The position numbers and the translations under genes were made by a program. The notes beneath the pieces are model-generated. The model searched no databases. It saw nothing but the letters and a program-made list of their open reading frames with translations, and was not told the origin of the DNA. Of a DNA stretch of 64,000 nucleotides, positions 41,825 to 58,299 are shown in pieces. Within the stretch, counting starts at the first letter, position 1, and every line of letters starts with the position of its first letter. Origin of the DNA: Natronoglycomyces albus (GTDB taxonomy: Bacteria; Actinomycetota; Actinomycetes; Mycobacteriales; Micromonosporaceae); contig NZ_CP070496.1 of assembly GCF_016925535.1 (NCBI RefSeq), positions 682,001 through 746,000 of the forward strand. Reading direction: 5' to 3'.

Positions 41825-42982
41825 TTAGTTGATCGTCCGCGTGACCAGCGTCAGGTTCCAGCTGTTCAACATCGGGAGAATCGGCTGGTAGAACGTCGTT
41901 CCACCGGTCCGGCAGTTGCCGGAGCCGCCGGAGGTGACGCCTTGGGCGCTGCTTCCGGAGATGAACGATCCACCCGAGTCACCAGGTTCGGCACAAGCGG
42001 AAGTACGCGTCAGTCCGCGCACTTGACCCTGCGGGTAGGACACGGTTTGGTTTTTGGCTTGGATGGAGCCGCAGCGCCATCCGGTGGTGATGCCCGAGCG
42101 GCAGATGCTGGCGCCGATGGGGGCTTCGGTGGCGTTGTTGACTTGGGTCCAGCTGCTGCTGGTGCGGACTAGTGGGTAGAGGGTCTTGTTGGAGGCGACT
42201 TCGACGAATGCGGCGTCTGCGCCGGGGAAGACCGAGTTGCGGTAGATGCCCGGGGCGGGGTTGCCTCGGGTTACTTGGGCGCCGACGCGGCCGCAGTGGC
42301 CGGCGGTGACGAAGCCCTTGGTGTTGCCGCGGAGGACGGCGAAGCCGACCGAGCAGCTGGAAGTGTTGGTTCCCTGCAGGATTCCACCAGCCACATAGAA
42401 GGTGTCCGGTGCTTCCACAGCGGTGTCAATGACAACGGCGGAGCTGTCGACGCCCGCCAGGGAGGCGAACTCCTTGGCTCCGTCGGTGGTGGCCGCTTCG
42501 AGGACCACCGAGTTGTTCACGACGTCCACGTACCAGCCGTAGACCCCATAGTCGAGCGGGTCGACAGACACCGACGCGAATTCCGCGGTGGCGCTTTCGA
42601 GTTCGGCCAGCGAGTACTTCGCGTCGACCGAGGTGATCTCGGAGGCGGTCACGGAGACGCCGGAGGTTGAGGCGACGATGATGTCTTCGCCGTTTTCGGC
42701 GATCCATAGTCCGGCGAATCCGGCCTCAGAGGCTAGGTCGGCTTCGAGGGTGGTGGCGACGCTTTCGAGGGCGAGGCGGTCGTATGCTTCGTTGACGCTG
42801 ATGTCGAAGTGTTCGGTCATCGCCTCCAGCATGTTGGTGTCGACATTGCCGACTAGGTCAGCACGAGCATCGTTGATCTCAGCTTCCAAAGTGTGGGCGG
42901 AAGCCGAGGTATTCAGGGCAAGAACGCCGGACACAGCCAGGGTAGCGGCTGCGCCTCCGGCAATTACTCGTCTTACTTTCAT
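41825..42982 (-). CDS. Secreted serine protease A (S1, alpha-lytic/streptogrisin type)
   Basis: The product is 385 aa from ATG 42982; 13 upstream in-frame residues are dropped because the signal peptide starts MKVRRVIAGGAAATLAVS, with cleavage near ASA-HTL (29/30). Residues 30-195 are an acidic pro-region like the folding chaperone of alpha-lytic protease. The mature chymotrypsin-fold enzyme starts near YVAGG (196). The catalytic triad is His229 (FVTAGHC), Asp256 (PGADAAF) and Ser336 (EPGDSGGSF). Six cysteines (210/230, 294/304, 330/357) suit three disulfides. It acts outside the cell. It is the first of five tandem paralogues; large blocks are identical to protease B. A shared ATTCA-N-TGAAT motif lies 113-149 bp upstream. 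Confidence 0.95.
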   Translation of the reverse strand: MKVRRVIAGGAAATLAVSGVLALNTSASAHTLEAEINDARADLVGNVDTNMLEAMTEHFDISVNEAYDRLALESVATTLEADLASEAGFAGLWIAENGEDIIVASTSGVSVTASEITSVDAKYSLAELESATAEFASVSVDPLDYGVYGWYVDVVNNSVVLEAATTDGAKEFASLAGVDSSAVVIDTAVEAPDTFYVAGGILQGTNTSSCSVGFAVLRGNTKGFVTAGHCGRVGAQVTRGNPAPGIYRNSVFPGADAAFVEVASNKTLYPLVRTSSSWTQVNNATEAPIGASICRSGITTGWRCGSIQAKNQTVSYPQGQVRGLTRTSACAEPGDSGGSFISGSSAQGVTSGGSGNCRTGGTTFYQPILPMLNSWNLTLVTRTIN

Positions 42983-43094
42983 TGTGTTGCCTTTCAGGGT
43001 GAGGCACGAAACAACATCCACAAGGGAAAGGGCGATTCACATCCGGGTAACCGGGGTAGGCGTACCACGGATGCTGAGTTCAGCGTAGAACAGC

Positions 43095-43131
43095 ATTCAG
43101 TGAATTTAAAGATGTCAATAATTCACTGAAT
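43095..43131 (-). promoter_or_regulatory. Double palindromic operator and -35 box of protease A
   Basis: ATTCAGTGAAT (43095-43105) and ATTCACTGAAT (43121-43131) flank a minus-strand TTGACA (43113-43118). Centres are 26 bp apart, so a dimeric regulator could bind both sides of the -35 box. Confidence 0.65.
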
Positions 43132-43482
43132 ATCAGGTAATGGTCCAGTTGTGGACATCTTCCAAACAAACCTTTGTTTAGGGATAAGTATGCCTTCTTT
43201 AGTGGTGGGAACAAATGTCAGCGGTGGTTATCGCCTTCGCTCCGGGATTTGTGTAAAAGCAGCTAAGGCGGCATGGGGGAATAATTTGTTGGGTATGGCC
43301 AATAGGAGTGTGACTGGGGGTGGCGGGTGGGGATATTGATAATGGTCCATGCGTAGTTGTCATTCTCGAATGGGGGAGCGGAGTGATCTCGTCAGTCGAC
43401 CTAGTCGTTTGCTTACTTATGTCAAGATCACTAATGAGAGAGTCGGGCCTGTCTGAGGCGTCCCTGGGGAAGGGCACGTAAA

Positions 43483-43510
43483 AGGGGCCGACTGCAATGA
43501 GTCGGCCCCT
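43483..43510 (-). terminator. Terminator of protease B
   Basis: A perfect 11-bp stem (AGGGGCCGACT/AGTCGGCCCCT) with a 6-nt loop, followed on the minus strand by TTTTACG. It lies 179 bp past the stop because repeat A4 separates gene and terminator. Confidence 0.8.
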
Positions 43511-43542
43511 AGAGAAGGGGATATCTGAGCTAGAGGGCCTAG

Positions 43543-43640
43543 GAGGCTTATGTAAATGGGGCTTTCGGCGTTCTGGTGGGCTGGCTATCTGTGTGAACTG
43601 CGCCTCCTGCGGCCTTGAGCTTGCACTCTTACATAAGTCC
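43543..43640 (+). repeat. Family A inverted-repeat element, copy A4
   Basis: GAGGCTTATGTAAA opens and CTTACATAAGTCCC closes the element; the core TTTCGGCGTTCT is kept. It lies between the protease B stop and its terminator, inside the 3' untranslated region. Flanks TAG/TGG. Confidence 0.82.
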
Positions 43641-43688
43641 CTGGGTCTTGGCTCATCAAACCACTGCGGTGTTAACGGTTGGGTTCGG

Positions 43689-44849
43689 CTAGTTGACTTG
43701 CTGGGTGACCAGCGTCAGGTTCCAGCTGTTGAGCATTGGCCAGATCGGCTGGAAAACCGACCAGGTGTTGCCACCTCCGCAGCCGAGGAGTCCGCCGGAG
43801 GTGACGCCTTGGGCGCTGCTTCCGGAGATGAACGATCCACCCGAGTCACCGCTGTTGACACAGGCGGAGGTTCGGGTCATGCCGTGGACGGCGCCCTGGG
43901 AATAGTTGACGGTTTGGTTTTTGGCTTGGATGGAGCCGCAGCGCCATCCGGTGGTGATGCCCGAGCGGCAGATGCTGGCGCCGATGGGGGCTTCGGTGGC
44001 GTTGTTGACTTGGGTCCAGCTGCTGCTGGTGCGGACTAGTGGGTAGAGGGTCTTGTTGGAGGCGACTTCGACGAATGCGGCGTCTGCGCCGGGGAAGACC
44101 GAGTTGCGGTAGATGCCCGGGGCGGGGTTGCCTCGGGTTACTTGGGCGCCGACGCGGCCGCAGTGGCCGGCGGTGACGAAGCCCTTGGTGTTGCCGCGGA
44201 GGACGGCGAAGCCGACCGAGCAGCTGGAAGTGTTGGTTCCCTGCAGAATCCCACCAGCGACGTAGGCCGTCTGGGGAGCTTCGCTGGAGATATCGATAAC
44301 GATATTCGAGCTGTCCACACCCGCCAGGGAGGCGAACTCTTTGGCTCCGTCGGTGGTGGCCGCTTCGAGGACCACCGAGTTGTCCATGACGTCCACGTAC
44401 CAGCCGTGAATTCCGTAGTCGCTTGCCGCTTCCGCGACCGGGTTGAACTGTGAGGAGGTGTACTCCAGTTCATCGAGGGTGTACTTCGCCTCGATGACGG
44501 TGACTTCGTTCGCGGTTATGGAGACGCCGGAGGTTGAGGCGACGATGATGTCTTCGCCGTTTTCGGCGATCCATAGTCCGGCGAATCCGGCCTCAGAGGC
44601 TAGGTCGGCTTCGAGGGTGGTGGCGACGCTTTCGAGGGCGAGGCGGTCGTATGCTTCGTTGACGCTGATGTCGAAGTGTTCGGTCATCGCCTCCAGCATG
44701 TTGGTGTCGACATTGCCGACTAGGTCAGCACGAGCATCGTTGATCTCAGCTTCCAAAGTGTGGGCGGAAGCCGAGGTATTCAGGGCAAGAACGCCTGCTG
44801 AGGCAACGATTGCGGCGGCGCTTGCGGCCACTATTCGTTTTGTTTTCAT
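43689..44849 (-). CDS. Secreted serine protease B (S1, alpha-lytic/streptogrisin type)
   Basis: The product is 386 aa from ATG 44849; the 25 upstream in-frame residues are not a signal peptide. The signal peptide MKTKRIVAASAAAIVASAGV is cleaved near ASA-HTL. The pro-region spans about 30-195, with mature start near YVAGG. The triad is His229, Asp256 and Ser336 (NSGDSGGSF), and the six cysteines align with protease A. Residues 22-109 and the block around 203-315 are identical to protease A, while 110-200 and 316-386 differ, a mosaic typical of gene conversion. The C-terminal loop (GLLGCGGGNTWSVFQP) is distinct, which may change the substrate pocket. Secreted enzyme, with its own promoter and terminator. 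Confidence 0.95.
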   Translation of the reverse strand: MKTKRIVAASAAAIVASAGVLALNTSASAHTLEAEINDARADLVGNVDTNMLEAMTEHFDISVNEAYDRLALESVATTLEADLASEAGFAGLWIAENGEDIIVASTSGVSITANEVTVIEAKYTLDELEYTSSQFNPVAEAASDYGIHGWYVDVMDNSVVLEAATTDGAKEFASLAGVDSSNIVIDISSEAPQTAYVAGGILQGTNTSSCSVGFAVLRGNTKGFVTAGHCGRVGAQVTRGNPAPGIYRNSVFPGADAAFVEVASNKTLYPLVRTSSSWTQVNNATEAPIGASICRSGITTGWRCGSIQAKNQTVNYSQGAVHGMTRTSACVNSGDSGGSFISGSSAQGVTSGGLLGCGGGNTWSVFQPIWPMLNSWNLTLVTQQVN

Positions 44850-44962
44850 GGTGTGCCTTTCGAGGGGTAAGGCATAGAGCAACATCCCGTTAGGGAAAAG
44901 GGCGATTCGCGTCCGGAGCTCCAAGGTGGCGACTTCGGATGCTGATCTTAGATTAGGGCAGC

Positions 44963-44999
44963 GTTCCAGGAATTCAAAGATGTCAATAATTCACTGAAT
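44963..44999 (-). promoter_or_regulatory. Double palindromic operator and -35 box of protease B
   Basis: GTTCCAGGAAT (44963-44973, degenerate) and ATTCACTGAAT (44989-44999) flank a minus-strand TTGACA, with the same 26-bp centre spacing and the same distance to the start codon as in protease A. Confidence 0.62.
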
Positions 45000-45121
45000 A
45001 TCAACCCTTGAGTAGGTTGTGAGTGCCCCGCAATTAAACTATTGATTCACTGACGCAAGCGCTGGGTGGGCATGAATAAGAATGTTTGCACCTTCCTATG
45101 CCTTTGTTTCCGGCAACGAGA

Positions 45122-45150
45122 ATGACCCACCCGCTGCGCGGGTGGGTCAT
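45122..45150 (-). terminator. Terminator of protease C
   Basis: Perfect 13-bp arms ATGACCCACCCGC and GCGGGTGGGTCAT with loop TGC, 200 bp past the stop at 45352; the minus-strand tail is TCTCGTT. Confidence 0.6.
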
Positions 45151-45198
45151 ATATCTTGCCGGTAAAGATCAACCGTTCCAGCCGGTGTTACGTGTGAG

Positions 45199-45220
45199 GA
45201 TATTGATAAAAATCAATATC
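45199..45220. promoter_or_regulatory. AT-rich inverted repeat GATATTGAT-AAAA-ATCAATATC
   Basis: Perfect 9-bp arms around AAAA, in an AT-rich island, followed by GATCGATCG. The left arm recurs at 43332. It could be a regulator site or a second termination hairpin for protease C. Confidence 0.4.
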
Positions 45221-45351
45221 GATCGATCGTATTCAACACCTGTCGATTTTTAGTGTCGATGCTTTTTGCGGTGAGGCTGGTCGGTAATGAATGACGAGAA
45301 TGTCCGCTCACTACCGACCGGCGTCAATGTCGAGAAGTGAAACAGAACCCT

Positions 45352-46518
45352 TTAGGACGTCACCAAAGACAGGTTCCACTGGTTCAGCACCGGGTTCAGC
45401 GGGTAGAACAAGGCGTCACCAACACCGTTGTTACACGCGCCAGAGCTTCCGGAGTGAATTCCCTGGGCACTGTTGCCACTGATGTGCGCTCCTCCAGAGT
45501 CGCCACCTGAGGAACAAGCGGTGGTGCGGGTCATGTTGTAGACCGGACCCTGCGAGTAGTTGACCGTGAGGCCCTTGGCCTGAATCGTTCCACACCGCCA
45601 ACCAGTGGTCTGGCCCGAGCGACAGATGCTAGCGCCCACGGCGGCCTCGTTCGAGTTGTGGACCACGCGGCTGTAACCGTTGTGCATGGTCACGTGAGGG
45701 AACAGAGTCTTGCCCGCGCTGACGCTGACAAATGCGGCATCTTGCCTGGGGAAGATCGAATTCACAAACGTGCCAGGTGCGGCGTTGCCGCTGGTCACGC
45801 TCGTGCCAGCCGAGGCGCAGTGGCCGGCGGTCACGAAACCGGGCGTGTTGCCCTGGCGGACCGAGAAGCCGACTGAGCAGATGTTTCCACCCGCCACATA
45901 GCGTTCACCGCCACGGACGTGCTCGGGTTCGAATGCCTCGGTCTCGGTGTCGATCAGCACGGCCTCGGGGTCCACCCCGGCGGAGGAGATGAACTCGGTG
46001 GCCGCCTGCTGGGAATCGGCGCTGACAACGACCGCGTTAGCAGTCACGTCGACGAACCAGCCGAACGTTTCATCGGCGTCCGCCAGGTCGGCGTGTGCGT
46101 TGAGCTGGTCGATGATTTCGTCCAGATCCGCAAGCGACCGGTCGACGTACCTCGTGCTCAACTCGCTATCGATGTCGGCAACGCGGTCGATGTCCCCAGC
46201 GAGGGCGACGTGAATGTCGGTGCCGTCTTCGCTGATCCACAGCCCCGCGAAATCCGAGTTGGTGGAAAGTTCACTTTCGAGTTCGGAGGCGACCGCTTCT
46301 AGCGCGAGTCGGTCATAGGCGGCTTCGGTGGAGATACCGAAGGTGTCTGACATGGCCGCGACCAGTCCGGCGTCCACGGTGTCGACCAAGTCGACGCGGG
46401 CCTGGGCTATCTCAGCGGCTAGACCGTTGGCATTGGCTGCGGAGGTGGAGAAGGTAAAGATACCGACGGTTGCGATCGCTGCCGCAGAGGCGCCAGCGAG
46501 GATGCGTTTCGTTTTCAT
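45352..46518 (-). CDS. Secreted serine protease C (S1, alpha-lytic/streptogrisin type)
   Basis: The product is 388 aa. The signal peptide MKTKRILAGASAAAIATVGI is cleaved near ANA-NGL. The pro-region reaches about 205 and ends in FEPEHVRGGERYVAGG. The triad is His233 (FVTAGHC), Asp260 (PRQDAAF) and Ser341 (SGGDSGGAH); six cysteines are conserved, the last pair lying in ACSSGG and GACNNG. It is more divergent than A and B, with a substituted pocket loop (SGSSGACNNGVGDAL). The upstream region lacks a close ATTCANTGAAT copy; related strings lie about 450 bp away. Independent transcription is likely. Confidence 0.95.
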   Translation of the reverse strand: MKTKRILAGASAAAIATVGIFTFSTSAANANGLAAEIAQARVDLVDTVDAGLVAAMSDTFGISTEAAYDRLALEAVASELESELSTNSDFAGLWISEDGTDIHVALAGDIDRVADIDSELSTRYVDRSLADLDEIIDQLNAHADLADADETFGWFVDVTANAVVVSADSQQAATEFISSAGVDPEAVLIDTETEAFEPEHVRGGERYVAGGNICSVGFSVRQGNTPGFVTAGHCASAGTSVTSGNAAPGTFVNSIFPRQDAAFVSVSAGKTLFPHVTMHNGYSRVVHNSNEAAVGASICRSGQTTGWRCGTIQAKGLTVNYSQGPVYNMTRTTACSSGGDSGGAHISGNSAQGIHSGSSGACNNGVGDALFYPLNPVLNQWNLSLVTS

Positions 46519-47378
46519 TTGTTCCTACCGGGGTATATAGGGGATTGCCAAGCAGGCAATGGGATTGGGATATGTGGGCGCAGGTGAGTCCATACCAGGA
46601 GGTGGCTTCCGCATCTGCGAAGTGGAGGACTTCTCAGTGCCGAACCAAGGCCGCGAGGAGGGCGGCCGGTTCCTCTTTCGACTCTGATCGATACGAAGGC
46701 GACCAGAGCGAAGTCCGGGAAAGGGGCATCTTCCATGCCATATCTTTAGTCCTCGACCGGGTATGGACTTTCTGTACCGTTGGGGCGTATTCAGTTATGT
46801 CTGACAACCGCGGTCGGGTAGCGCCGAGCGTGATGCGCCTACCCTTCTCGTCGGTCTTCAGAGGGGAGAGCCTGGCTCTGGGGGTAATCAGAACCAGCCT
46901 TCGCCCAATGGCTCCGCGCCGAGTGTGAATGGGTTGCCCATGGCCCTCGGTCACATCGCCATTGATTCTTATGAATATGAATAACATTCCATGAAGTGTC
47001 GGGCGTCACCAGGGTCAGGTTTCACTCGCTGCGCGCATGAAGGGCCTGCCGCGACCGGTGATCGCGTTCGTTCGTGTCGATAGCGACGTTTCCCCAGGTG
47101 TTGAAGCTACCGCCCTTGAGGCTTGGTCCACGGCCGTCCTGGAAATCCTTATGTCCATGAGGTGATCCACCGATGGGAAAACTCAGTGAACGTGATCGTG
47201 CGGCCAGGAGAGAAGAAGTGGACGGTACTGCGGCTGTGAGTCTCGGATTCACGTGCCGTTGTAGTACCGTCCACCGCTCTTCTTATGTGGTTAGGGATTG
47301 GCGATGAGGTTTACGGTCTTGGTCTAGGAAGGAGTCCAGGCTCAACTACGCGTCCACATCGGCAGTCCTCGGTCCTGA
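46519..47378. other. Intergenic region upstream of protease C
   Basis: These 860 bp hold no convincing gene. Frames of 73-152 codons overlap on both strands and none has a recognisable family or ribosome site. Seen: ATTC-TTAT-GAAT (46965-46976), ATTCCATGAAG (46986-46996) and the hairpin 47218-47274 after protease D. Confidence 0.5.
47218..47274 (-). terminator. Hairpin after protease D
   Basis: Perfect 12-bp arms GTGGACGGTACT and AGTACCGTCCAC enclose a smaller stem (CGGC..GCCG, GTGA..TCAC). It lies 105 bp beyond the protease D stop, and the minus-strand tail is TTCTTCTCTCC. It is larger than the other terminators of the array. Confidence 0.6.
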
Positions 47379-48527
47379 TTAGGCGGTGGCCAGGGTCAGG
47401 TTCCAGGCGTTCAGCATCGGCAGGATCGGCTGGTAGTACGTGGTACCGCCCCACGAGCAGTTGCCGGAGCCGCCGGAGGTGACGCCCTGGGCGCTGTTAC
47501 CGGTGATGTAGGCTCCGCCGGAGTCGCCCGGCTCGGCGCAGACGCTGGTTTGCGTCATGCCGTGCACGGTGCCCTGCGGGTAGGAAACAGACTGGTTCTT
47601 AGCCTGAATGGTTCCACAGTGCCAACCGGTGGTCTGGCCGGAGCGGCAGATCGAAGCACCGATGGCGGCCTCGTTGGCGTTGTGGACAGCGCGGGTGCCC
47701 CAGTATGTGTTGACGGTACCGGTCACGTTCTTACCAGCGGAAACGGAGACCCAGGCGGCGTCGTTGCCGGGGAAGACCGACTGCTGGAAGGTACCGGGGG
47801 CGGCGTTGCCACGGGTAACAGCGGCACCCTGGCTGCCACAGTGACCGGCGGTCACGAAGCCCGGAGTGCTGCCGTGGTAGACGCCGAACCCGACCGAGCA
47901 GGTTCCCACGTTGGTGCTGTAGGAGTCGCCACCACGGACGATGAAGGTTTCGGGAGCCTCCACGTCGGTGTTGTAGCTGACGAGGTCGGTGTTGACGCCA
48001 GCGGCCTCGGCGAATGCCTCGCCGGCTTCGGTCGATGCGGCCTCGACGACGACTTCGTTGTTCATGACGTCGACATACCAGCCGTAGACGCCTTCTTCAC
48101 CTTTGACGCCAGCGTGGTCATCGAGCACGCCAATGACCCGGTCCAGGGTGGCCAGGTCGTACTTGACGGGAACCTCGTTGACTCCCGGGGTGGACAGCTC
48201 GCTTCCTTCGGTGGTCGCGACGTTGATTTCGGTTCCGTCCGCGTTGACCCACAGGCCAGCGAAGCCAGCCTCGGCGGACAGTTCGCTGGTGAGGTCGGAG
48301 GCGACACTTTCGAGAGCCAGGCGGTCCAGGGCGGCCCCTTCGGAGATTCCGAAGTGTTCGGTCATGGCACCGAGAAGTTCGGTGTCTACGTTTCCGACCA
48401 GGTCGGCTCGCGCATCCGCAATGTCGGCGTCCAGGGTCTGGGCCGAGGCTGAGGTGTTAAAAGCGAAGGCGCCAGCGACAGCAAGGGTAGCTGCTGCACC
48501 ACCAGCGAGAATTCGACTTTTTCGCAT
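47379..48527 (-). CDS. Secreted serine protease D (S1, alpha-lytic/streptogrisin type)
   Basis: The product is 382 aa. The signal peptide MRKSRILAGGAAATLAVAGA is cleaved near ASA-QTL. The pro-region runs to about 198 (APETFIVRGGDSYS). The triad is His229, Asp256 (PGNDAAW) and Ser336 (EPGDSGGAY); cysteines at 210/230, 294/304 and 330/357 pair as in A. The pocket loop SGGSGNCSWGGTTYYQP is close to that of A and E. A single ATTCACTGAAT (48680-48690) lies about 155 bp upstream, with GAACGTTC beside it. The C-terminus NLTLATA is shorter. Secreted, with its own hairpin terminator. Confidence 0.95.
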   Translation of the reverse strand: MRKSRILAGGAAATLAVAGAFAFNTSASAQTLDADIADARADLVGNVDTELLGAMTEHFGISEGAALDRLALESVASDLTSELSAEAGFAGLWVNADGTEINVATTEGSELSTPGVNEVPVKYDLATLDRVIGVLDDHAGVKGEEGVYGWYVDVMNNEVVVEAASTEAGEAFAEAAGVNTDLVSYNTDVEAPETFIVRGGDSYSTNVGTCSVGFGVYHGSTPGFVTAGHCGSQGAAVTRGNAAPGTFQQSVFPGNDAAWVSVSAGKNVTGTVNTYWGTRAVHNANEAAIGASICRSGQTTGWHCGTIQAKNQSVSYPQGTVHGMTQTSVCAEPGDSGGAYITGNSAQGVTSGGSGNCSWGGTTYYQPILPMLNAWNLTLATA

Positions 48528-48679
48528 CGTTATGCCTTTCGGGTGAGGGCACCGGCAACAACCGGAGACTAAAGGGCGGGTGAGGGTGCCACGAGGAGTA
48601 ACCTGCGTTACACCTCTGAGGCTGATTCCCAGGCTAGGTCACAAAGTGATGCAGATCGATATGTATGAACGTTCCAATA

Positions 48680-48690
48680 ATTCACTGAAT
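48680..48690 (-). promoter_or_regulatory. Palindromic operator of protease D
   Basis: ATTCACTGAAT within the same AATAATTCACTGAAT string as in proteases A and B, 153 bp upstream of the start, next to the palindrome GAACGTTC (48669-48676). Confidence 0.58.
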
Positions 48691-49084
48691 GACAGGGCCT
48701 TTTTTAGTTGGGTACCCGAAGCAAACTAAATGGATCTACTGCGCAGTGATGCCAAATGATGGTGAAGTCCTACGGGCAAATTGTTGGTTGTGGCCTCTGA
48801 TTGTGACTACGGAGAGTATTCGAATGATGGAATTGGATTGTGGATTTAATGGACATTCCATTCAATGAATAGAAAACTACGGTTGATTCGGTTGCTATCT
48901 GTGAGCAAGCGGCACGCGAAATGAGGATGAAATTTCGTCAGGGGACGCCATCACGCCGCGCCATATGGCGATCGTTTGTGGCGGGGAGGCCGCCGCGTGT
49001 CCCTGTGGAGAGCTGGACGTGTAACCAGAGAGCGGCAGTGGGGGCGGTGTTACTTGGATTCGAAGGTACGGCCGATGAACCAGA

Positions 49085-49143
49085 CAACTTATGGGTTTTC
49101 TCTGGCCTGACCACCAGTGTGAATTTCTCATCCTGTGGGCCTA
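49085..49143 (+). repeat. Decayed family A element
   Basis: ACTTATGGGTTTTCTCTGG and GTGTGAATTTCTCATCCTGT with GGGCCTAAG keep the order of family A blocks (CTTATG, core, GTGTAAACTTC, CCTGCGGCCT). The right terminal repeat is replaced by the start of family B copy B1. Confidence 0.45.
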
Positions 49144-49307
49144 AGAGCTCCTATCAGGTTTCTCTTCCTACTGCGGTGGAGTGATGTCGCGCCTGGCCGC
49201 GTTGTCGGCCCTTGCCCATACCCGCTGGGTATGAACAAGGGCCTCCGCCTCCCCACGCACTGACAGCACACCATCCTCGCCACGGAAACAAACCTGATAG
49301 GAGCTCT
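49144..49307. repeat. Family B inverted-repeat element, copy B1
   Basis: Perfect 17-bp terminal inverted repeats (AGAGCTCCTATCAGGTT and its complement) bound a 164-bp element. An internal hairpin pairs CATACCCG with GGGTATG. It has no coding capacity. It resembles copy B2 over its whole length. Confidence 0.85.
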
Positions 49308-49455
49308 AAGCTCGCGCGATCGCACTAGTCTCGGTGAGCGCGTGGGGCCGTTCATATTCGCCACCGGGCAGTAACCGAGGATGCTTGTCGTAGATGGATA
49401 CGACGGCAGATTTCGTGCCACCTGAGGGCCCGGGCGGGAATCGAATCGTGAAAAC

Positions 49456-49494
49456 AGACGGGGTGTCACTCGAAATACGAGTGACACCCCGTCT
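49456..49494 (-). terminator. Terminator of protease E
   Basis: Perfect 17-bp arms (49456-49472, 49478-49494) with loop AAATA; the minus-strand tail is GTTTTCACG. It lies 108 bp past the stop. Confidence 0.85.
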
Positions 49495-49602
49495 GCCGGC
49501 GGTGAATACGGCCTTATGTCAGTCGATGGGGAGCCGACACTATATATAGTCCCGGTTCCCCGGCCTCGGCCTACCAATTCGATACTGCCCAGGCCCTACC
49601 TA

Positions 49603-50751
49603 TTAGCTGGTGACCAGCTGTAGCCCGAAGTCGTTCAGCGTCGGGTTGAGCGGGTAGAAGTAGGTGGTTCCACCAGTGGAGCAGTTACCCGATCCACCCG
49701 AGGTCATGCCCTGGGCGCTGGTGCCCGCGATGAACGCTCCACCGGAGTCACCGCCCTGCGCGCAGGCGCTAGTCCGCGTCATGCCGTGAACGGTGCCCTG
49801 CGCGTAGGAAACCGACTGGTTGAAGGCCTGAACAGTTCCGCACCGCCAGCCAGTGGTGGCGCCGGAACGGCAGACATTCGAACCGATGGGGGCCACGCTG
49901 GAATCCGTCACCGCGACCGTGCCTGAGCTGGTGAGAACTTGGGCGCGCAGGTCGGTTGTCTGAGTCGAGACCCAAGCATTGTCCTTACCCGGGAAAATCG
50001 AGTCGACGAACCGGCCAGGGGCCGCGTTGCCACCCTGCAAAGAAGTGCCCACACTTCCACAGTGCCCGGCAGTGGTAAAGCCGGGCTTACCGTTTTTGGT
50101 AGCCGCGAAACCGACCGAACACCAGCTGTTCATGGGCAGGTCGTAGCGGTCGCCTCCCGTCACGTGGAAGAGCTGCGGCTCCTCGACGTCCGCATCGATG
50201 GTGACCATGTCGGCGTCGATACCCGCCATATCGACAAAGGCGCGCCCATCGGCCTGGGTGGCGGCTTCGACGACAATGTCGTTGGAGGTGACGTCGATGT
50301 ACCACCCGTAGACGTTGTCCTCGTAGGCGTTCTCGCCCAGAGACTCCAGCTCATCGGTGATCGCGGTCAGGTCCGAGAGCGCGTGCTCGACGGTCACGTG
50401 CGTGACCCCCGCGGCCGTCACCGCCCCACCGGTGGTGGCAACGAAGATCTCAGAGGAGTCCTCGTTGAGCCACAGCCCGGCGAAGTCGGAGCGGGAGTCC
50501 AGGTCGGACTGGATGTTTGAGGCGACCGACTCCATTGCCAGGCGCTGCTTGGCTTCGTCGGCGCTGATTCCCAACTCCTCGGTCAGTGCCTCGAGCATTT
50601 GCGGGTCGAGATGCTGCTCCATGGCCTGGAGTGCGTTGTCGATCTCGGCGGAGAGTGGCTCTGCCGAGGCCGAGTTGACGCTGAGAGCGAAAGCGCTGGC
50701 CGCGGCCAACGCTGTCACCGATCCAGCGGCAACAATGCGTCGTGTATTCAT
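49603..50751 (-). CDS. Secreted serine protease E (S1, alpha-lytic/streptogrisin type)
   Basis: The product is 382 aa from ATG 50751; 19 in-frame residues upstream are not signal-like. The signal peptide MNTRRIVAAGSVTALAAASA is cleaved near ASA-EPL. The pro-region reaches about 199 (VEEPQLFHVTGGDRYD). The triad is His230 (FTTAGHC), Asp257 (PGKDNAW) and Ser336 (QGGDSGGAF). Six cysteines are conserved. The pocket loop SGGSGNCSTGGTTYFYP resembles A and D, but the pro-region is the most divergent of the five. The upstream motif is weak (ATTCACTTAAT, about 280 bp away). A strong terminator follows. Confidence 0.95.
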   Translation of the reverse strand: MNTRRIVAAGSVTALAAASAFALSVNSASAEPLSAEIDNALQAMEQHLDPQMLEALTEELGISADEAKQRLAMESVASNIQSDLDSRSDFAGLWLNEDSSEIFVATTGGAVTAAGVTHVTVEHALSDLTAITDELESLGENAYEDNVYGWYIDVTSNDIVVEAATQADGRAFVDMAGIDADMVTIDADVEEPQLFHVTGGDRYDLPMNSWCSVGFAATKNGKPGFTTAGHCGSVGTSLQGGNAAPGRFVDSIFPGKDNAWVSTQTTDLRAQVLTSSGTVAVTDSSVAPIGSNVCRSGATTGWRCGTVQAFNQSVSYAQGTVHGMTRTSACAQGGDSGGAFIAGTSAQGMTSGGSGNCSTGGTTYFYPLNPTLNDFGLQLVTS

Positions 50752-51155
50752 GTGTTCTGCCTTTCGGGGTGAGAAGCGACAGCCGTCACGAGCCACACCT
50801 AGAGACATGCGGACGTTAGTGCATCGGCCTCGGGTGTCACTCCGAGGCGGAGGTAAGCCGCGCCATCTGCGGGGTTTGCCCTCGACTACGGCGCGGGGGT
50901 CGGTCAGCCTCAGGTGACCGCAGCGCCGCCGTCGAGCGCGGGTGATGGCTCGTTGTCACTCTTCGAGTGACTGCTATCGCTTGCCGATGAGACTAGAACA
51001 CATATGTACAGATGGGAAGAAGGGAATAATTCACTTAATAGGGTTACCCATCAAAACATGCCTGGTTAAAGGCGCGTTGGTGGAGAAAAATGGCCGCGTA
51101 GCCGCCAGGTGGGCCACCCGTGGTACCCCAGAGCCGCGGATTGGGCTCCCCGCCG
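50752..51155. other. Intergenic region between protease E and trmB
   Basis: No gene is seen in these 404 bp. A degenerate operator ATTCACTTAAT lies at 51029-51039. The protease E promoter should lie between that site and 50752. Confidence 0.5.
51029..51039 (-). promoter_or_regulatory. Degenerate operator upstream of protease E
   Basis: ATTCACTTAAT, preceded by GGAATA, shares the AATAATTCACT string with proteases A, B and D but breaks the palindrome at one base and lies about 280 bp upstream. Confidence 0.4.
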
Positions 51156-52097: not shown

Positions 52098-53216
52098 CTA
52101 GTGGCCGGAGGCTGGCGACTCGTAGGAACGACCGCGGATGGCTCCCGAATGACGGCGGTCCGGCGGTGCGGAAACGCTGTCGGTCTCTCCGTCGTCACCG
52201 AACAACAACGAACCGGTTGGCCGCAGCTGCCGTACCTGCGGTTCTGGCTCGTCGTATTCGTCCTCGTATTCGCCCTCGGGTAGTTCGGTTTCGTCCGCTA
52301 GATCCTCGGGCGAGGCCGCGTGGTCATCGATCTCGGAGTGGGCCTGTGCCTCGTCGAGATCGTGAGCGGTCTCTTGTGCCGGAACATAGGTGGGACGCTG
52401 TGAACTCAGCCCACGACTGGGGTGGGCAGCCCGGGAACGTTGCCGTGCCAGGACCTTTGCGCGCAGCAGCGCCACGTAACAGCCCAACAGGATCGCGGAG
52501 ACGACGACACCAACCCAGAATCCGGGCCCCACGATGATGACGCCGATCAATTCGATGAAGAGCAGCGCTAGCAGGACATACAGGACTTTGCGGTGGCGAG
52601 CGCGCCACCACTGAGCTCGCTGAGCTCGTAGCCTGGCCTGGTTGCGCATATCAGTGTGGTCCTCAGCCGTTGCTGGTTGGTCTGTTTCCAACCGTACTGA
52701 TTGTCCGCTGCGACATCCGCGCCGTTCCCACCCGCGCGGGCGGCCGGTGGATGCTGCGTCGTTCAGTCTATTCCGCTTGTCCAGCTCGTGGTGGGTGGGT
52801 GCATCTGCTTGGGCCACAAGCGAATCACCGCCGCCCTCGGTGGGGCGAAAGGCTTCCTGCGCCGTCTCATACTCAAAGGAGTCGCTGAAAGTCGGCCTCT
52901 GGTCGTCCCATGGGGAAGGTGGCCACGACAAGGATGATCCCTCATCGGACCTGCCCGCGTCTTCTGCCAGTTCAGCGTGGGTAGCGGCTGGCACCGTGCT
53001 GCGGCCCACGGCGTTGCGAGTGGCGGGGGTGGGCGGGTTGATGGGGCCTTGTCGAGGCATATTCGAGGTTGATGGCGTACGTTCTAGCAGCCGGGCGCCG
53101 GAATTGGCGCGATCGGCCATGAGCCGTTCGTCGGCGTCGTAACGCCGCACGAGGGCGGGGGCCAGTAGCAGCAAGCCGGTGGCGGCCAGTACGGCCAAGA
53201 GAATGGATGCTGGCAC
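52098..53216 (-). CDS. Divisome membrane protein, SepX/GlpR-like
   Basis: The product is 372 aa. An N-terminal helix (ASILLAVLAATGLLLLAPAL) is followed by a basic stretch and a short RLLERTP segment, then a long disordered linker (about 50-195). A basic motif (RLRAQRAQWWRARHRK) comes next, then two helices (VLYVLLALLFIELIGVIIV, WVGVVVSAILLGCYVALL) and an acidic tail. This layout matches the actinobacterial SepX/GlpR family, which helps FtsZ and DivIVA-associated division and polar growth. The start codon at 53216 is followed by a consistent membrane segment. The call rests on layout and short motifs rather than a full alignment. Confidence 0.65.
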   Translation of the reverse strand: MPASILLAVLAATGLLLLAPALVRRYDADERLMADRANSGARLLERTPSTSNMPRQGPINPPTPATRNAVGRSTVPAATHAELAEDAGRSDEGSSLSWPPSPWDDQRPTFSDSFEYETAQEAFRPTEGGGDSLVAQADAPTHHELDKRNRLNDAASTGRPRGWERRGCRSGQSVRLETDQPATAEDHTDMRNQARLRAQRAQWWRARHRKVLYVLLALLFIELIGVIIVGPGFWVGVVVSAILLGCYVALLRAKVLARQRSRAAHPSRGLSSQRPTYVPAQETAHDLDEAQAHSEIDDHAASPEDLADETELPEGEYEDEYDEPEPQVRQLRPTGSLLFGDDGETDSVSAPPDRRHSGAIRGRSYESPASGH

Positions 53217-53917
53217 GGTCCCCTCCGAATCTCGCGTCGCGGCTACGTACTTCTAGTGATACGGCGCGTCTGTGATGTAGTTCTCGCTCCTAAAGCAAGT
53301 ATTGACCGGCTTCAGGTCGTGTCCGCAGGGCCTGACGATCGGGCGTTGAAAGCATCGCCAGATGGTCGCGACCAGGTCCGAACTGGTACTTACATGATCC
53401 CTGCATTGGTTATGAGTTCGGCATGGATCACACAGTACGCACAATAGTGTCAAATTTCTGACACTTTGCGGTACGCAGGGTACGAGCAAGCCCGAGAACG
53501 AGACAGTACAAAAACGGCATTAAGCGCAACCTACAACCACCACCCCACCCGTGTCAGATATCTGGCCAAAATCGCTGCGTGTGTCATCTGTACGCCAGGC
53601 GTCACTTCGCATACTCTCAGCTAGCAACCACCGCCAAGATCATTCGTTGTTCAACATGTGGAGGCCTCACGCCCTCACTCATGCAGCCGACTGCTTGGCC
53701 TCAACGCCCGGCAGCGGCCGGGCCATGTTTCATCCATGAACACCAACTACATACAACGACCAGAATCCTCACGGCGAGACAAGATCACGGCAGCCACAAA
53801 CTCCGGGCCGCCTGACGCACAGACCCACTTGGGTCTACATACTGACAAGGCAGCGGCAACCCGCACCCCGTCAGTTACACCTCAGCCCCGAACCAAGAAG
53901 GGAGCACCGGCCCTCCA
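53217..53917. other. Divergent intergenic region between SepX-like and sigma-factor genes
   Basis: These 701 bp show no gene. They contain GTGTCA-N6-TGACAC (53447-53464). Frames of 62-129 codons on the plus strand read into the sigma-factor start but lack family features. Confidence 0.5.
53447..53464. promoter_or_regulatory. Inverted repeat GTGTCA-N6-TGACAC
   Basis: A perfect 6-bp inverted repeat with AT-rich centre lies between the divergent SepX-like and sigma-factor genes, flanked by two GTACGC direct repeats. It suits a dimeric regulator. Confidence 0.45.
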
Positions 53918-56839
53918 ATGCCTGATGTCTCTTCTCCCGCGTCCACCGGAACCTCTGACCCGGAGCTCATCGCCGCGACCCGCGCAGGGGACACCACCGC
54001 CTACGCCGCCCTCTACGAGCGCCATGTCCACGCCGCTCGGCGCCTAGCCCGTGCCCTCACCCCCGACGCGGCCTTGGCCGACGACCTCGTCAGCGAGACC
54101 TTCGCCAAGCTACTCACCGTCCTACGCGACGGAAAAGGCCCCGACCTAGGCTTTCGTCCCTATCTTCTGCGCAGCCTGCGCAACACCTTCTACGACCGCA
54201 TTCGTCGCGACAAACGCATCGAATACACCGACGACCTCTCCGCCCACGAGGTGGGCCAACCACAACCAGACCCCGCCATCGAGGGACAAGATCGCCGCTA
54301 TGCCGCCTCGGCGTACTCCAAACTGCCCGAGCGCTGGCAAATGGTCCTGTGGCACACCGAAGTCGAAGAAGACAGCCCCGCTGACGTCGCCTCTCTGCTG
54401 GGTATGACCGCCAACGGTGTATCCGCGCTGGCCTACCGAGCCCGCGAGAGGCTACGCCAGCTATACCTCCAAGAACACATCGCCGACGCCCCCAGCCCAC
54501 AATGCGGCTGGACGGTCGACCGGCTGGGCGCCCGCGTCCGCGGCAGCCTCGCCGCGCGCGATGTCAGCAAGGTCGACCACCACCTAGACGACTGCGCCGC
54601 CTGCAAGGTTCTGTTCATGGAACTGACCGAAGTCAACTCCGGACTACGCGGAGTTCTGGCACCGGTCATTCTCGGCGCGGCCGCCCCGGCCTACCTGGCG
54701 GGAGCCTCCGCCAAAACCGCCGGGATCGCCTTCGCGGGGTTCTTCGCCGCGATATGGGAGCCGTTCCGCGTCGTGGCCAATTGGGTTCGCCGGATCTTCC
54801 AACGACTGGGGACGCGCAACTCCGTGGCCACCGGCGGCGCGACCGCTGCTGTGGTCGCTGGCCTCATCGCGCTGGCACTAGTGTCCAATGACGCGCCACC
54901 GCCACCCACCGAATCCGCCCTGCCTCCGGCTGAGGAAGAAGCCGCACCCCCTTCCGAGGAGGAACCCGAGGAGGAACCCGACCCGGCGGCGGACCCGGTT
55001 CCGGATCCGGAACCGGAACCGGACGAACCGATCGAGGAGCCCACGGAGGAACCGGTCGAGGAGCCTCCGGCCGAAGAACAGCCTCCGGCGGAGGACCCAC
55101 CCGCCGAGCAACCCCCGGCCGAGGAACCACCAGTCGAGGAGGCACCTCCGGCCAACTACGACGTTCACTACGACCTCGCCGGTGCCAACCTGGTCGCGGG
55201 GCAAGGCAATACCCTTCCCTTGGAACTGCGAGAGAGCGACGACGGAGGCAACGGTGGCGGCCGCATCGCGCCGACCGAGCGCGGAACGCTCCCGCCCGAC
55301 GCCGCAGACCTCTCCGAGGAACTATGGACGCACGAACCCGTCGCCAGCGAGGGGAATTCATTCCCTCCCGGCCCGACCACGACCGAGTCTCAAGGCCCCT
55401 TGAGTCCGCTCATGGAACCAATAACGCTCTCCGACACCACCGGAATCAACGCGGTGCGGGCGGCCGAGCTGCTCAACGTCGGCACCTCAAAAGACCTATT
55501 CCTCCCCGACCCGCGTCCCGGGGACTTCATCGGACCTTGGGTCGACCCCGACCGTGGCAGCGACCTTCCGCCGAGCGAGGAAGACCCCGACACCATCGAG
55601 GACCGGCCCGAACCGGAACCGGACAGACCGTATGAGGAGACCGAACCCGAACCAGGCGAGCGCAACAAACTACGCCTGACTCTCGAGGTCCCCACCGGCT
55701 TCACACTTACTGGCTCCGATGCCTCCGACGGCTGGGAATGCGACGCCGACGGCGCGCTCATCAGCTGTGTTCGCGACTCCCTCGAACCCGGGCAAGGCAC
55801 GACGGCGCAGGTGCCGATCGGAATCGAGCCACAAGTCAGCGGCTACCAGACCGTCACGATTTCGATCCGGGGCGCGGGCGAGTCCCAGGCAACCCTGCGA
55901 GTTCCCGTCGCCCCGCCTGGCTCGGCGGTTGGCTATGCCTCGCTAGAGGCCACCGGCGTAGCCATGGCGGGCAACACCCTACTGAATTGCCTCTCGTTCG
56001 CCTGCCAAGAACAAGCCCTCCTGGGATGGAATGATGACTTCCCCATGGGGCCCTACGTGCCCGGTCACGGCGACCCACGGCCGCCCGCAGGTCGTTCGAA
56101 ACACGCCGCCTCCGGAGCCCACCTAGCGATCCCCGATGGGGCTCGCGTCGAATGGGCGGGCCTATATTGGGCTGGCTCCGATAACTCACTGCCAGACAGC
56201 GTCTCCTTCGCCGGCCCCAGCGGCAGTTGGTTGGACCTCGGTTCACACCATGTGCGCAACGCCGGCCCCTTCGGCCAAGCCTTCGTTGACGTGACGGCTC
56301 AGGTCAGCGGCGGAGGCGAGTACTGGGTGGCGGCCGACCCGGATCAGCTTCCCGGCTGCCAGAACGTCAAGGGAAACGGCCATCTGCTTGACTGGAGCGA
56401 CTGGAACCAAAGCTCATCATCCACATGCCAGGGACACTCGGCGGGTTGGGGCCTGACGGTCGTCTATAGCCAGCCGGGCTCGCCACAGCGTGAGATCGCC
56501 GTCTACGACGCTCCTCAATATCTCAGCGGCCATGGACTCGACATATACCTGCGCGGCGGCGGACCTGTCGATGTTGGCTATCTGTTGTGGGGCGGTTCCC
56601 GCGCCAAGACCAAAGACTATATGGACATCGGCGGGATTCCGGTCGGCCAACCCGGAAACGTGGCCTACTCACGGTCGGCCTCGGCGCTCAACCACAGCAA
56701 CTGGTGGTACACCTTCGGCGTTGACGCCGATCACCACACCATCGTCGCGCCACCGGGCCCGCAGGACCTCACCGTGCATCCGGGTAACGACGAGTTCGCA
56801 CTGGGCGTGATCGCGTTGGCGACGCCGCCAGAGGATTAA
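53918..56839 (+). CDS. ECF sigma factor fused to zinc-binding anti-sigma-like and extracellular regions
   Basis: The product is 973 aa. Residues 15-100 are sigma region 2 (DDLVSETFAKLL, RDKRIEYTD); 135-190 are region 4 (LPERWQMVLWHTEVEED, MTANGVSALAYRARERL). An anti-sigma-like zinc motif HxxxCxxC (His222, Cys226, Cys229) follows. Hydrophobic segments lie near 243-283 and 304-323, then an acidic Pro/Glu linker (about 327-412) and a 560-residue extracellular part. That part includes a beta-sandwich-like repeat (LRLTLEVPTGFTL) and a conserved WAGLYWAGS domain. A sigma factor tied to the membrane through its own inhibitor-like module implies a one-protein signal path; release or cleavage would be needed to act. 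The AGGGAG ribosome site is 13 bp from ATG 53918. Confidence 0.88.
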   Translation: MPDVSSPASTGTSDPELIAATRAGDTTAYAALYERHVHAARRLARALTPDAALADDLVSETFAKLLTVLRDGKGPDLGFRPYLLRSLRNTFYDRIRRDKRIEYTDDLSAHEVGQPQPDPAIEGQDRRYAASAYSKLPERWQMVLWHTEVEEDSPADVASLLGMTANGVSALAYRARERLRQLYLQEHIADAPSPQCGWTVDRLGARVRGSLAARDVSKVDHHLDDCAACKVLFMELTEVNSGLRGVLAPVILGAAAPAYLAGASAKTAGIAFAGFFAAIWEPFRVVANWVRRIFQRLGTRNSVATGGATAAVVAGLIALALVSNDAPPPPTESALPPAEEEAAPPSEEEPEEEPDPAADPVPDPEPEPDEPIEEPTEEPVEEPPAEEQPPAEDPPAEQPPAEEPPVEEAPPANYDVHYDLAGANLVAGQGNTLPLELRESDDGGNGGGRIAPTERGTLPPDAADLSEELWTHEPVASEGNSFPPGPTTTESQGPLSPLMEPITLSDTTGINAVRAAELLNVGTSKDLFLPDPRPGDFIGPWVDPDRGSDLPPSEEDPDTIEDRPEPEPDRPYEETEPEPGERNKLRLTLEVPTGFTLTGSDASDGWECDADGALISCVRDSLEPGQGTTAQVPIGIEPQVSGYQTVTISIRGAGESQATLRVPVAPPGSAVGYASLEATGVAMAGNTLLNCLSFACQEQALLGWNDDFPMGPYVPGHGDPRPPAGRSKHAASGAHLAIPDGARVEWAGLYWAGSDNSLPDSVSFAGPSGSWLDLGSHHVRNAGPFGQAFVDVTAQVSGGGEYWVAADPDQLPGCQNVKGNGHLLDWSDWNQSSSSTCQGHSAGWGLTVVYSQPGSPQREIAVYDAPQYLSGHGLDIYLRGGGPVDVGYLLWGGSRAKTKDYMDIGGIPVGQPGNVAYSRSASALNHSNWWYTFGVDADHHTIVAPPGPQDLTVHPGNDEFALGVIALATPPED

Positions 56840-57627
56840 GAGGGCAGCGGGGTCGGCCTAGTGCGGGCCCCGTTCCATTGAGAGCTCCTATCGGGTTTCT
56901 CTTCCTGCTGCGGTGGTGTTCCCTCGCGCCTGGCCACGTTGTCGGCCCTTGTCCATGTCAGCTGGGTAGGAACAAGCGCCTCCGACTCCCCAGGCACCGA
57001 TGGCACACCATCCTCGCTACGAGGTATACCCGATAGGAGCTCTAAGTTTAGGTCTTGACCGACCGCCGCGACGTATGTGTCACTAGTTGTCGAGTTCACC
57101 CTTCGTCACTTATCGTGGGCTTCTTGGGCGACGGTGGGCCAGGGGGCAATCCGGCCCCTCTCCGTTCGCTCTACTATGTACACATTGCTGAGGTCCAGTG
57201 CCCTGGCATTCTGGTCCCATTAGCCCGATAAGTAGTACTTCGATGGCTGCGGTTTTAGGCCGGATGTGACAATCTTTTGTGACGTTGGCTATAAGATCCA
57301 TTGGCGAGTTCGTGTATTCACCGCCAACTTCCACAGTCCTTAGTTGAGAATGAGTTGATCCGCAGTCACTCGCGAATTGGCCGCGGTCATGCACGCTGAG
57401 ACCGATTCCAGAGTCCGGCAGTTGGCGTTCTGCGAGTTCAGGGCAGGCATAAGGAGATATCGACCCTCGCCGATGGATGCTCTCGCCTCCGAGGCACCAG
57501 GCTGGGTCGAGGTTTCAAACTCACTGGCGGCGGCTGGGCTAACACGGGAGAATAGGGATCAGTGTCCAAATTAAGGAATTAGTGGAGGAACCTCGATCTT
57601 GTACGCCCAAGGTATCGTTTTCTGAGT
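56840..57627. other. Intergenic region with family B copy
   Basis: These 788 bp contain repeat B2 (56881-57043). The remainder (57044-57627) shows no recognisable gene; a 94-aa minus frame at 57110-57394 has no family features. The GtrA promoter should be near the right end. Confidence 0.5.
56881..57043. repeat. Family B inverted-repeat element, copy B2
   Basis: Perfect 16-bp terminal inverted repeats AGAGCTCCTATCGGGT and its complement bound a 163-bp element. The arms differ from B1 at one base pair changed on both sides (A:T to G:C), so pairing is kept. It lies 41 bp past the sigma-factor stop. Confidence 0.85.
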
Positions 57628-58299
57628 ATGGTTGGCACTGGCACAGACATGACTTCGCAGCGCAGCGACTCCGAGGCTAACCCGAGGACTGCATCGGCTC
57701 AGGCGTCAGGTTCGCAGAACCCGCCGCAGCGATCAGGCCCCGGGAAGAAGACCTCCACCAAACGTAAACGTCCTGGGTTGTATAGACGTGTGCGGGCAAA
57801 TATAGGTGAAATAACCAAATTTGCCGGAGTTGGCGGAACCGCCTATATTCTCGACGTCATTCTCTTCAATATCTTCTGGATTCTTCTCGGCTGGCCCTCG
57901 TGGCTGGCCAAGACAGTGTCGACGACTATTGCGACCACTGGATCGTTCTTCGGCAACCGTCACTGGACCTGGAACGACCGCATCAGTGACCGGGTCGGCA
58001 AGCAATACTTTCTGTTCTTCGTGATGAATGGCATCGGGTTGGTCATCACCCTGGCCTGCATCTGGATCAACCACCTATTGGGCCTGGCGTGGCCGGGGAT
58101 CTTCGACAACCCGCTGGCGGTCAATATCGCCGCCAACGTCGTCGGTATCGGGGTGGCGACAGGCTTCCGTTTCTACGCTTACCGCACGTGGGTGTTCCCG
58201 CCTCTGGGCAGCAAGGCTCCCAGCAAAGGTGGCAGTGGGAAACGGCCCCCGCGACAGGATGCCGACCAAGATTCCGCCACCACCGAGCCCAGTTCCTAA
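57628..58299 (+). CDS. GtrA-family membrane protein
   Basis: The product is 223 aa from ATG 57628; Met8 (57649) is an alternative. Residues 1-55 are polar and basic. The GtrA domain begins with EITKFAGVGGTAYILDVILF and has four membrane helices, with the loop NRHWTWNDR and the closing RFYAYRTWVFP. Family members are thought to move or anchor polyprenyl-linked sugars for wall glycan or teichoic-type polymers. The gene is convergent with the PH-domain gene, matching the mycobacterial Rv3277-Rv3278c order. The C-terminal 35 residues are basic then acidic and polar. Confidence 0.92.
   Translation: MVGTGTDMTSQRSDSEANPRTASAQASGSQNPPQRSGPGKKTSTKRKRPGLYRRVRANIGEITKFAGVGGTAYILDVILFNIFWILLGWPSWLAKTVSTTIATTGSFFGNRHWTWNDRISDRVGKQYFLFFVMNGIGLVITLACIWINHLLGLAWPGIFDNPLAVNIAANVVGIGVATGFRFYAYRTWVFPPLGSKAPSKGGSGKRPPRQDADQDSATTEPSS

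Follow-up and report, generated by a model that had tools for sequence, protein, structure and literature searches.

Why should an open reading frame begin as a sigma factor and end as a large outer domain, and what might such a protein do? This question is raised by the gene at 53918..56839 (+) in the window, that is, the whole analysed stretch of 64,000 nt from Natronoglycomyces albus (GCF_016925535.1, NZ_CP070496.1 positions 682,001-746,000, forward strand). By its sequence, the protein is an extracytoplasmic function (ECF) sigma factor to which a zinc anti-sigma-like domain is fused, and it is of the ECF48/52/53 type. We think it fairly probable that it works as a one-piece transmembrane signalling sigma factor, which would be kept silent in cis until contact of its outer head with a ligand or surface leads to its proteolytic release. 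The gene and its parts are as follows.

53918..56839 (+): whole gene of the fused ECF sigma, zinc anti-sigma-like, membrane and outer-head protein (973 aa; stop codon included)
54011..54217 (+): sigma region 2, aa 32-100 (Pfam Sigma70_r2, E 3.8e-12)
54314..54454 (+): sigma region 4, aa 133-179 (Pfam Sigma70_r4_2 under cut-off, E 7.8e-5)
54503..54604 (+): zinc anti-sigma-like motif C196...H222xxxC226xxC229, aa 196-229 (zf-HC2, E 9.8e-6, over cut-off)
54650..54757 (+): first hydrophobic stretch, a possible membrane hairpin, aa 245-280 (by hydropathy; weak in the window protein)
54824..54880 (+): last membrane helix, aa 303-321 (hydropathy 2.03)
54896..55156 (+): acidic Pro/Glu stalk, aa 327-413 (36% Pro, 37% Asp+Glu, no Lys or Arg)
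55157..55231 (+): first strand of an Ig-like (DUF11-like) domain, aa 414-438 (LxAGxxxxLPI, conserved in most of 14 relatives)
55232..55663 (+): acidic low-complexity stretch of 144 residues interrupting the Ig-like domain, aa 439-582
55664..55921 (+): remainder of the Ig-like domain, aa 583-668 (AlphaFold model; integrin Ig-like match)
55922..56836 (+): beta-rich head, aa 669-973, with AGNT, WAGLYW, DVT, AGW and FGVD motifs (distant kin of DUF3344)

The frame is uninterrupted over 973 codons. When it is divided into ten consecutive blocks, third-position G+C stays at 0.71-0.82 throughout. In mononucleotide shuffles of the gene (n=200), open frames reached 389 aa at most. A GGAG-like ribosome site at ~53900-53904 precedes the start codon, with comparable placement in Glycomyces relatives. 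The same fusion of sigma part and head was found in 35 distinct proteins, the window protein counted. Because the fusion recurs across many genomes and the frame bias is continuous, a frameshift between two separate genes is ruled out, and the original prediction was borne out in its anatomy: sigma part, anti-sigma-like part, membrane segments and outer domain make up one chain. The outer region had also been called unusual in size and nature. The nature of the head does stand out, but the design and the length do not, because the layout is the one known from ECF48/52/53, as outlined in the relevant part of PMC8999054, and 14 relatives measure 793 to 983 aa as stop-to-stop frames, so that 973 aa is ordinary.

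The inner half has the make-up of an ECF sigma factor, with regions 2 and 4 and no region 3. The NCBIfam model TIGR02937 (sigma70-ECF) covers aa 28-181 with E 9.3e-20 and 70.9 bits, over its cut-off of 42.9, while the Sigma70_r4_2 match reaches 22.7 bits against a cut-off of 25.7. Structure comparison puts aa 12-190 among ECF sigma factors; the best match, of aa 12-103 to region 2 of E. coli sigmaE, has Z 13.9 and a root-mean-square deviation (rmsd) of 2.2 over 89 residues. Two alignments that contain the window protein, one of 15 and one of 40 rows, show conserved sigma residues. The zinc motif is that of zinc-binding anti-sigma factors, HxxxCxxC plus the upstream ligand C196, and C196, C226 and C229 are kept in 15/15 aligned sequences (the window protein and 14 full-length relatives). 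A profile of 40 sigma-zinc-membrane segments matches 3hug_B, from the entry of the anti-sigma factor RslA with sigL, over its zinc region (E 0.0047). Beyond residue 229, nothing in Pfam or NCBIfam exceeds its cut-off in the window protein.

Hydropathy gives membrane segments near residues 245-263 and 303-321. A further intermediate segment is clear in several relatives and weak in the window protein, and the structure model predicts long helices at aa 245-280 with low to middling confidence. Around the last helix the charges are unequal: five Lys/Arg lie in the 25 residues before it and none in the 25 after, where there are five Asp/Glu. Across the 35 head-bearing proteins, window protein included, the mean number of Lys/Arg is 3.6 in the 25 positions ahead of the last segment and 0.8 in the 25 behind it; the count is higher before than after in 32/35, with three ties and none reversed. 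Heads related to this one are found in proteins whose N-termini, read by eye, resemble signal peptides. Because of the charge bias and these secreted-looking relatives, the C-terminal ~650 residues (aa 322-973) are, by sequence rules, most likely extracellular. The outer placement given in the original prediction thus held, and so did the presence of an outer region, although its size had been put at about 560 residues.

Outside the membrane, the acidic stalk leads to an Ig-like domain split by the insertion, and then to the head. The AlphaFold model of aa 583-973 was built from 19 sequences and is well resolved, with a mean predicted local distance difference test score (pLDDT) of 85.9 and a predicted template modelling score (pTM) of 0.88. 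Over the first 84 residues the model resembles integrin Ig-like domains (Z 7.9, rmsd 2.3, 83 residues). In the window protein and 14 relatives, the cysteine pair 608/617 is present in 15/15 rows and the pair 691/696 in 14/15. The WAGLYWAGS-type domain that had been noted at first is present as a motif but is larger than was thought, since WAGLYW marks the middle of a 300-residue beta-rich head (aa 669-973). The structural matches of this head are weak. The best match of its last 115 residues is to xylanase J (Z 8.4, rmsd 3.0, 94 residues), with the best background of the tool at Z 7 to 8; BcsB, CBM35 and CBM6 entries come below xylanase J among the jelly-roll matches, near background Z, and Foldseek's own best rows have TM-scores (template modelling) of 0.28 or less. 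The insertion in the Ig-like domain measures 144 residues in the window protein against 8-101 in the 14 relatives. As a speculation, this acidic segment (55232-55663) could be a protease-sensitive loop.

What kind of head is it? A profile of the outer domain matches 25 of 396 phylum-wide genomes, the genome of N. albus included, some of the matches covering the Ig-like part only. Outside that genome the stronger matches (E 3e-26 to 1.9e-39) sit in open frames of 393 to 5239 aa, and the long proteins, as read, have the head first and DUF11 repeats after it. These lengths are affected by the ~1.5 kb flanks of loci L076-L104, which cut long frames. In the set made up of the window's own genome and relatives, the profile matches 47 of 121 genomes, in frames of sigma-fusion size and in frames of 1359-3766 aa. 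Pfam DUF3344 (PF11824; cut-off 27.2 bits) has no match in the window protein. It reaches E 0.01 or better in four of ten related proteins scanned, at 26.1, 24.5, 20.7 and 18.9 bits, all below the cut-off. The DUF3344 kinship of the window head is therefore indirect, and 'adhesin-like head' is used here for this kinship and does not imply adhesion itself. Among the scored share of the first-look candidates, no second, unfused head protein was present in the own genome, which leaves unsupported the idea of a sigma factor head copied from an adhesin that the cell itself makes. In the open-access literature we found no report linking DUF3344 or adhesin-like heads to a sigma factor.

Several of these matching proteins are worth a separate remark. 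Among L076-L104, only L101 has a sigma-zinc profile match besides the head. This protein (L101:103-2646), from a distant genome, carries the zinc motif, a membrane segment and the same head, and its sigma region is degenerate, lacking a Sigma70_r2 match. L081 and L083-L086, in Streptomyces-like genomes, are frames of 393-424 aa that consist mostly of head; L081, L083 and L084, as read, have signal-peptide-like starts.

Does the head always accompany this sigma part? Genome contigs were searched with the sigma-zinc-membrane profile, and the best 80 of 583 candidates, together with further loci, gave 148 protein rows, with some organisms twice and some rows cut by locus ends. A DUF3344-like head is present in 43 rows, a double Ig-like part with a Pro-rich tail in 43, and another, no or an incomplete end in 62. 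Within the best 80 of the 583 candidates, the DUF3344-like head occurs in 9/9 Glycomycetaceae and 8/8 Micromonosporaceae, and the double Ig-like part in 42 of 49 Pseudonocardiaceae loci, four of the other seven being cut. DUF3344-like heads are also found in rows of other families, including Nocardiopsis. One protein, by sequence the Nocardioides one, has cadherin-like or Big-type repeats. All seven relatives scanned that we take to be Streptomyces-like carry NPCBM with E below 1e-26. A TetR regulator adjoins in 5/5 Streptomyces-like loci; a sixth protein scanned there, encoded one gene farther away, is an oxidoreductase. In Streptomyces coelicolor, atrA adjoins SCO4117, according to a passage in PMC5826349. 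From the NPCBM domain and the TetR neighbour, we infer that the NPCBM rows are orthologues of SCO4117.

A tree of 71 rows and 231 columns was made by a quick method with SH-aLRT (Shimodaira-Hasegawa-like approximate likelihood ratio test) support only, and the tool flags long branches adjacent to the NPCBM clade. In this tree, the window protein lies within a starred set of six head-bearing rows, and six NPCBM rows form one clade (100*) with the window protein outside it. The labels of the outer parts change 11 times on the tree, against 37 in shuffles. The outer part, as seen in these rows, differs by lineage on one sigma/zinc/membrane chassis; the head may have been ancestral and then replaced, or may have been gained more than once. 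Even in the own family the long form is patchy. In a scan of 37 own-family genomes, with at most 14 candidates scored in each and a strong match defined as E below 1e-50 with the whole protein as query, the sigma module was strong in 19/37, and in six of these the best match was a short frame of 244-373 aa. These short frames (G006, G008, G017, G027, G029 and G036) are similar in the sigma-zinc part and are without the long outer part, possibly representing a reduced form. Among 72,556 plasmid records, 24 match the gene and none reaches 80% query coverage; the best is a Nonomuraea gerenzanensis record of 11.85 Mb, with 63% coverage and 35.7% identity.

These findings bear on whether the sigma part matters to the protein at all. 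The protein might be mainly a surface adhesin or envelope-binding protein, in which the sigma part is carried along as a passenger or gives weak feedback on the protein's own insertion. The kinship of the head to the heads of giant DUF11-repeat surface proteins agrees with this idea, and so does L101, where zinc motif and head are retained with a degenerate sigma region. We nevertheless consider it highly improbable, because the sigma/zinc/membrane part is the better conserved one, with 50-67% identity between the window protein and the same 14 relatives against 28-44% for the outer part, and because the sigma part is constant while the outer part varies between lineages.

The reading of a sigma factor freed by ligand contact would imply the following sequence of events. 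Inside the cell, the fused zinc anti-sigma-like domain would keep the ECF sigma part inactive and tied to the membrane. Outside, the acidic stalk and the Ig-like domain would bear the beta-rich head, which is of the kind that stands at the start of giant adhesin-like proteins of the cell surface. Contact of the head with its ligand, which might be a glycan, the envelope or a surface, would lead to cutting or pulling of the outer part, and a site-2 protease would then cut within the membrane. The zinc domain would be removed, and the freed sigma factor would turn on its genes. Silencing in cis followed by outer and then membrane cutting is proposed by analogy with SCO4117, IutY and RsgI, as far as the sources describe them. 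Proteolysis has been proposed for ECF48/ECF53 (a section of PMC8999054), and proteolytic release for ECF52, whose studied member is SCO4117, for which truncation data exist (both in parts of PMC5826349). Two M50 protease genes are present in the own genome. A Rip1/RseP-like protease (419 aa) is encoded there, flanked by a dxr-like and an ispG-like gene, with gene names assigned by eye.

Alternatively, the sigma part may never be released; the outer signal would alter the fit between zinc domain and sigma part, and RNA polymerase would be recruited at the membrane. In the ECF52 proposal of Pinto and Mascher, as cited in part of PMC5826349, a conformational change is named as an alternative, and the proteolytic steps for the window protein are drawn from analogy. 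On the other hand, IutY, the one fused sigma factor whose activation is called characterised in the pertinent portion of PMC8999054, is cut, being released by Prc and RseP, and the Rip1/RseP-like protease is encoded in the own genome. Retention at the membrane therefore appears rather unlikely to us.

Some points weigh against release upon ligand contact as well. The cis inhibition, the cleavage, the ligand and the target genes are steps that we infer. The number of helices is uncertain because the first hydrophobic stretch is weak, and the model of aa 1-325 (mean pLDDT 81) has a pTM of 0.40, too low to place the zinc domain on the sigma part. No target promoter was found; by eye, the aligned upstream regions of the window gene and nine relatives show no nameable shared promoter motif. 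For DUF3344, the part of PMC9210967 that deals with it gives a place among the clusters of domains from predicted fibrillar adhesins and calls the function ambiguous.

Do the neighbouring genes indicate what is sensed or switched on? Two features of the window were considered.

57628..58299 (+): gtrA-like gene for a predicted lipid-linked sugar flippase, a positional neighbour
41825-50808 (-): expanded array of five protease genes with alpha-lytic protease prodomains (41825-43021, 43689-44924, 45352-46518, 47379-48527, 49603-50808)

The gtrA-like gene is the only GtrA match in the own genome. In 78 of 120 loci, some genomes being counted twice, gtrA is the same-strand neighbour of the sigma gene (76/100 in an earlier set of loci); L065, one of 121 loci, has no sigma match and was dropped from this count. 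The gap between the two genes is at most 200 bp in 45 of 54 measurable loci. In 25 of the 78 loci the distance is negative due to overlapping stop-to-stop frames, and tblastn coordinates put gtrA downstream. GtrA proteins are predicted to serve cell-surface polysaccharides, according to a portion of PMC7775120. These observations would fit an ordinary envelope-stress sigma factor (ECF48/52/53 kind) that uses its head to detect when the cell's own wall polymer breaks down or runs short, and that has gtrA as a target. A functional partnership with gtrA looked strong at first. It was then weakened, because gtrA stays in a gtrA-PH-birA-accD block in 10/10 own-family genomes without a strong sigma match (10 examined of 18, out of 37), in which absence of the sigma gene is likely, not proven, given the limited number of candidates scored per genome. 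In loci from elsewhere in the class, gtrA is beside the sigma gene in 0/20, and in the window itself the gap is 788 bp. Since gtrA keeps its place where the sigma gene seems absent and is not beside it elsewhere in the class, the link may be positional only, and the envelope-stress explanation seems unlikely. No sigma-70-type promoter or terminator pattern is present in 56700-57700. In all ten own-family genomes looked at (L269-L278), a pair of neighbouring gtrA matches occupies the place of the single one in the window.

The protease array had been suggested as a possible partner in the original prediction, which was not upheld. A homologue of the nearest S1 protease (49603-50808), the only one tested, is near the sigma gene in 1/100 loci, although 91 of 98 loci measured hold at least 6 kb upstream of the sigma frame. 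A divergent gene without a Pfam match (52098-53216, -) is kept beside the sigma gene in Glycomyces-type loci (13/100 loci).

Returning to the protein as a ligand-released sigma factor, the relatives permit a wider proposal, which we offer tentatively as a possibility. There may be a class of actinobacterial adhesin-tipped sigma receptors that has one chassis, one order of parts and one chromosomal place, and exchanged heads (DUF3344-like, double Ig-like, NPCBM and cadherin-like); the DUF3344-like version would let the cell feel attachment to a surface or glycan, or its state, and pass this to transcription in a single polypeptide. Knowledge of sigma factors with a membrane-fused anti-sigma part comes mostly from surveys of domains and from a small number of genes that have been studied. 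In the present relatives the switch is retained and the sensing part varies from lineage to lineage, and the ligand of DUF3344-type heads could be read as transcription, a direct test of binding. If contact or surface binding is the signal, the route from outside touch to RNA polymerase would be very short.

How does this protein compare with known systems? Actinobacterial ECF48 and ECF53 have, like the window protein, a fused zinc domain, one to two membrane helices and a C-terminal extension, according to the section of PMC8999054 on these groups. In comparison by description, their published extensions, as given there, measure up to 400 residues, against ~740 beyond the zinc motif in the window protein. 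ECF52, represented by SCO4117, shares with it regions 2 and 4, the fused zinc finger, the membrane region, a Pro-rich extension, an outer domain and an actinobacterial host. They differ in that ECF52 carries NPCBM (smart00776 in SCO4117), whereas the window protein has a DUF3344-like head on an Ig-like domain, and in chromosomal place, the window gene being on the trmB/gtrA side and ECF52 beside a TetR gene. NPCBM has no match in the window protein or anywhere in its genome. We therefore do not file the window protein as ECF52, because NPCBM is absent and its sigma part is outside the NPCBM clade.

IutY of Pseudomonas putida (ECF243) has no adhesin-like head that we know of. Like the window protein, it joins a sigma factor to a membrane anti-sigma part (a passage of PMC8999054). 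It signals the siderophore aerobactin, as there described, and its sigma group differs from that of the window protein. The SigI/RsgI system of Clostridium thermocellum likewise has one membrane chassis, divergent outer sensors and cleavage by RseP, with an autocleaving periplasmic domain being central (portion of PMC12203970). RsgI anti-sigma factors are separate from their sigma factor, whereas the window protein is fused. In addition, sigmaI is generally not counted among the ECF factors.

On the outer side, DUF3344/DUF11-repeat surface proteins have the same head motifs as the window protein (by eye) and match the outer-domain profile. Unlike it, they have signal-peptide-like starts and no sigma part, and in them the head precedes the DUF11 repeats, while in the window protein it follows an Ig-like domain. 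What is new, as far as sequence comparison can tell, is the variation of the outer part by lineage on a shared sigma/zinc/membrane chassis, together with a head, in this protein, related to the DUF3344-type domains of giant DUF11-repeat surface proteins on an ECF48/52/53-like sigma factor.

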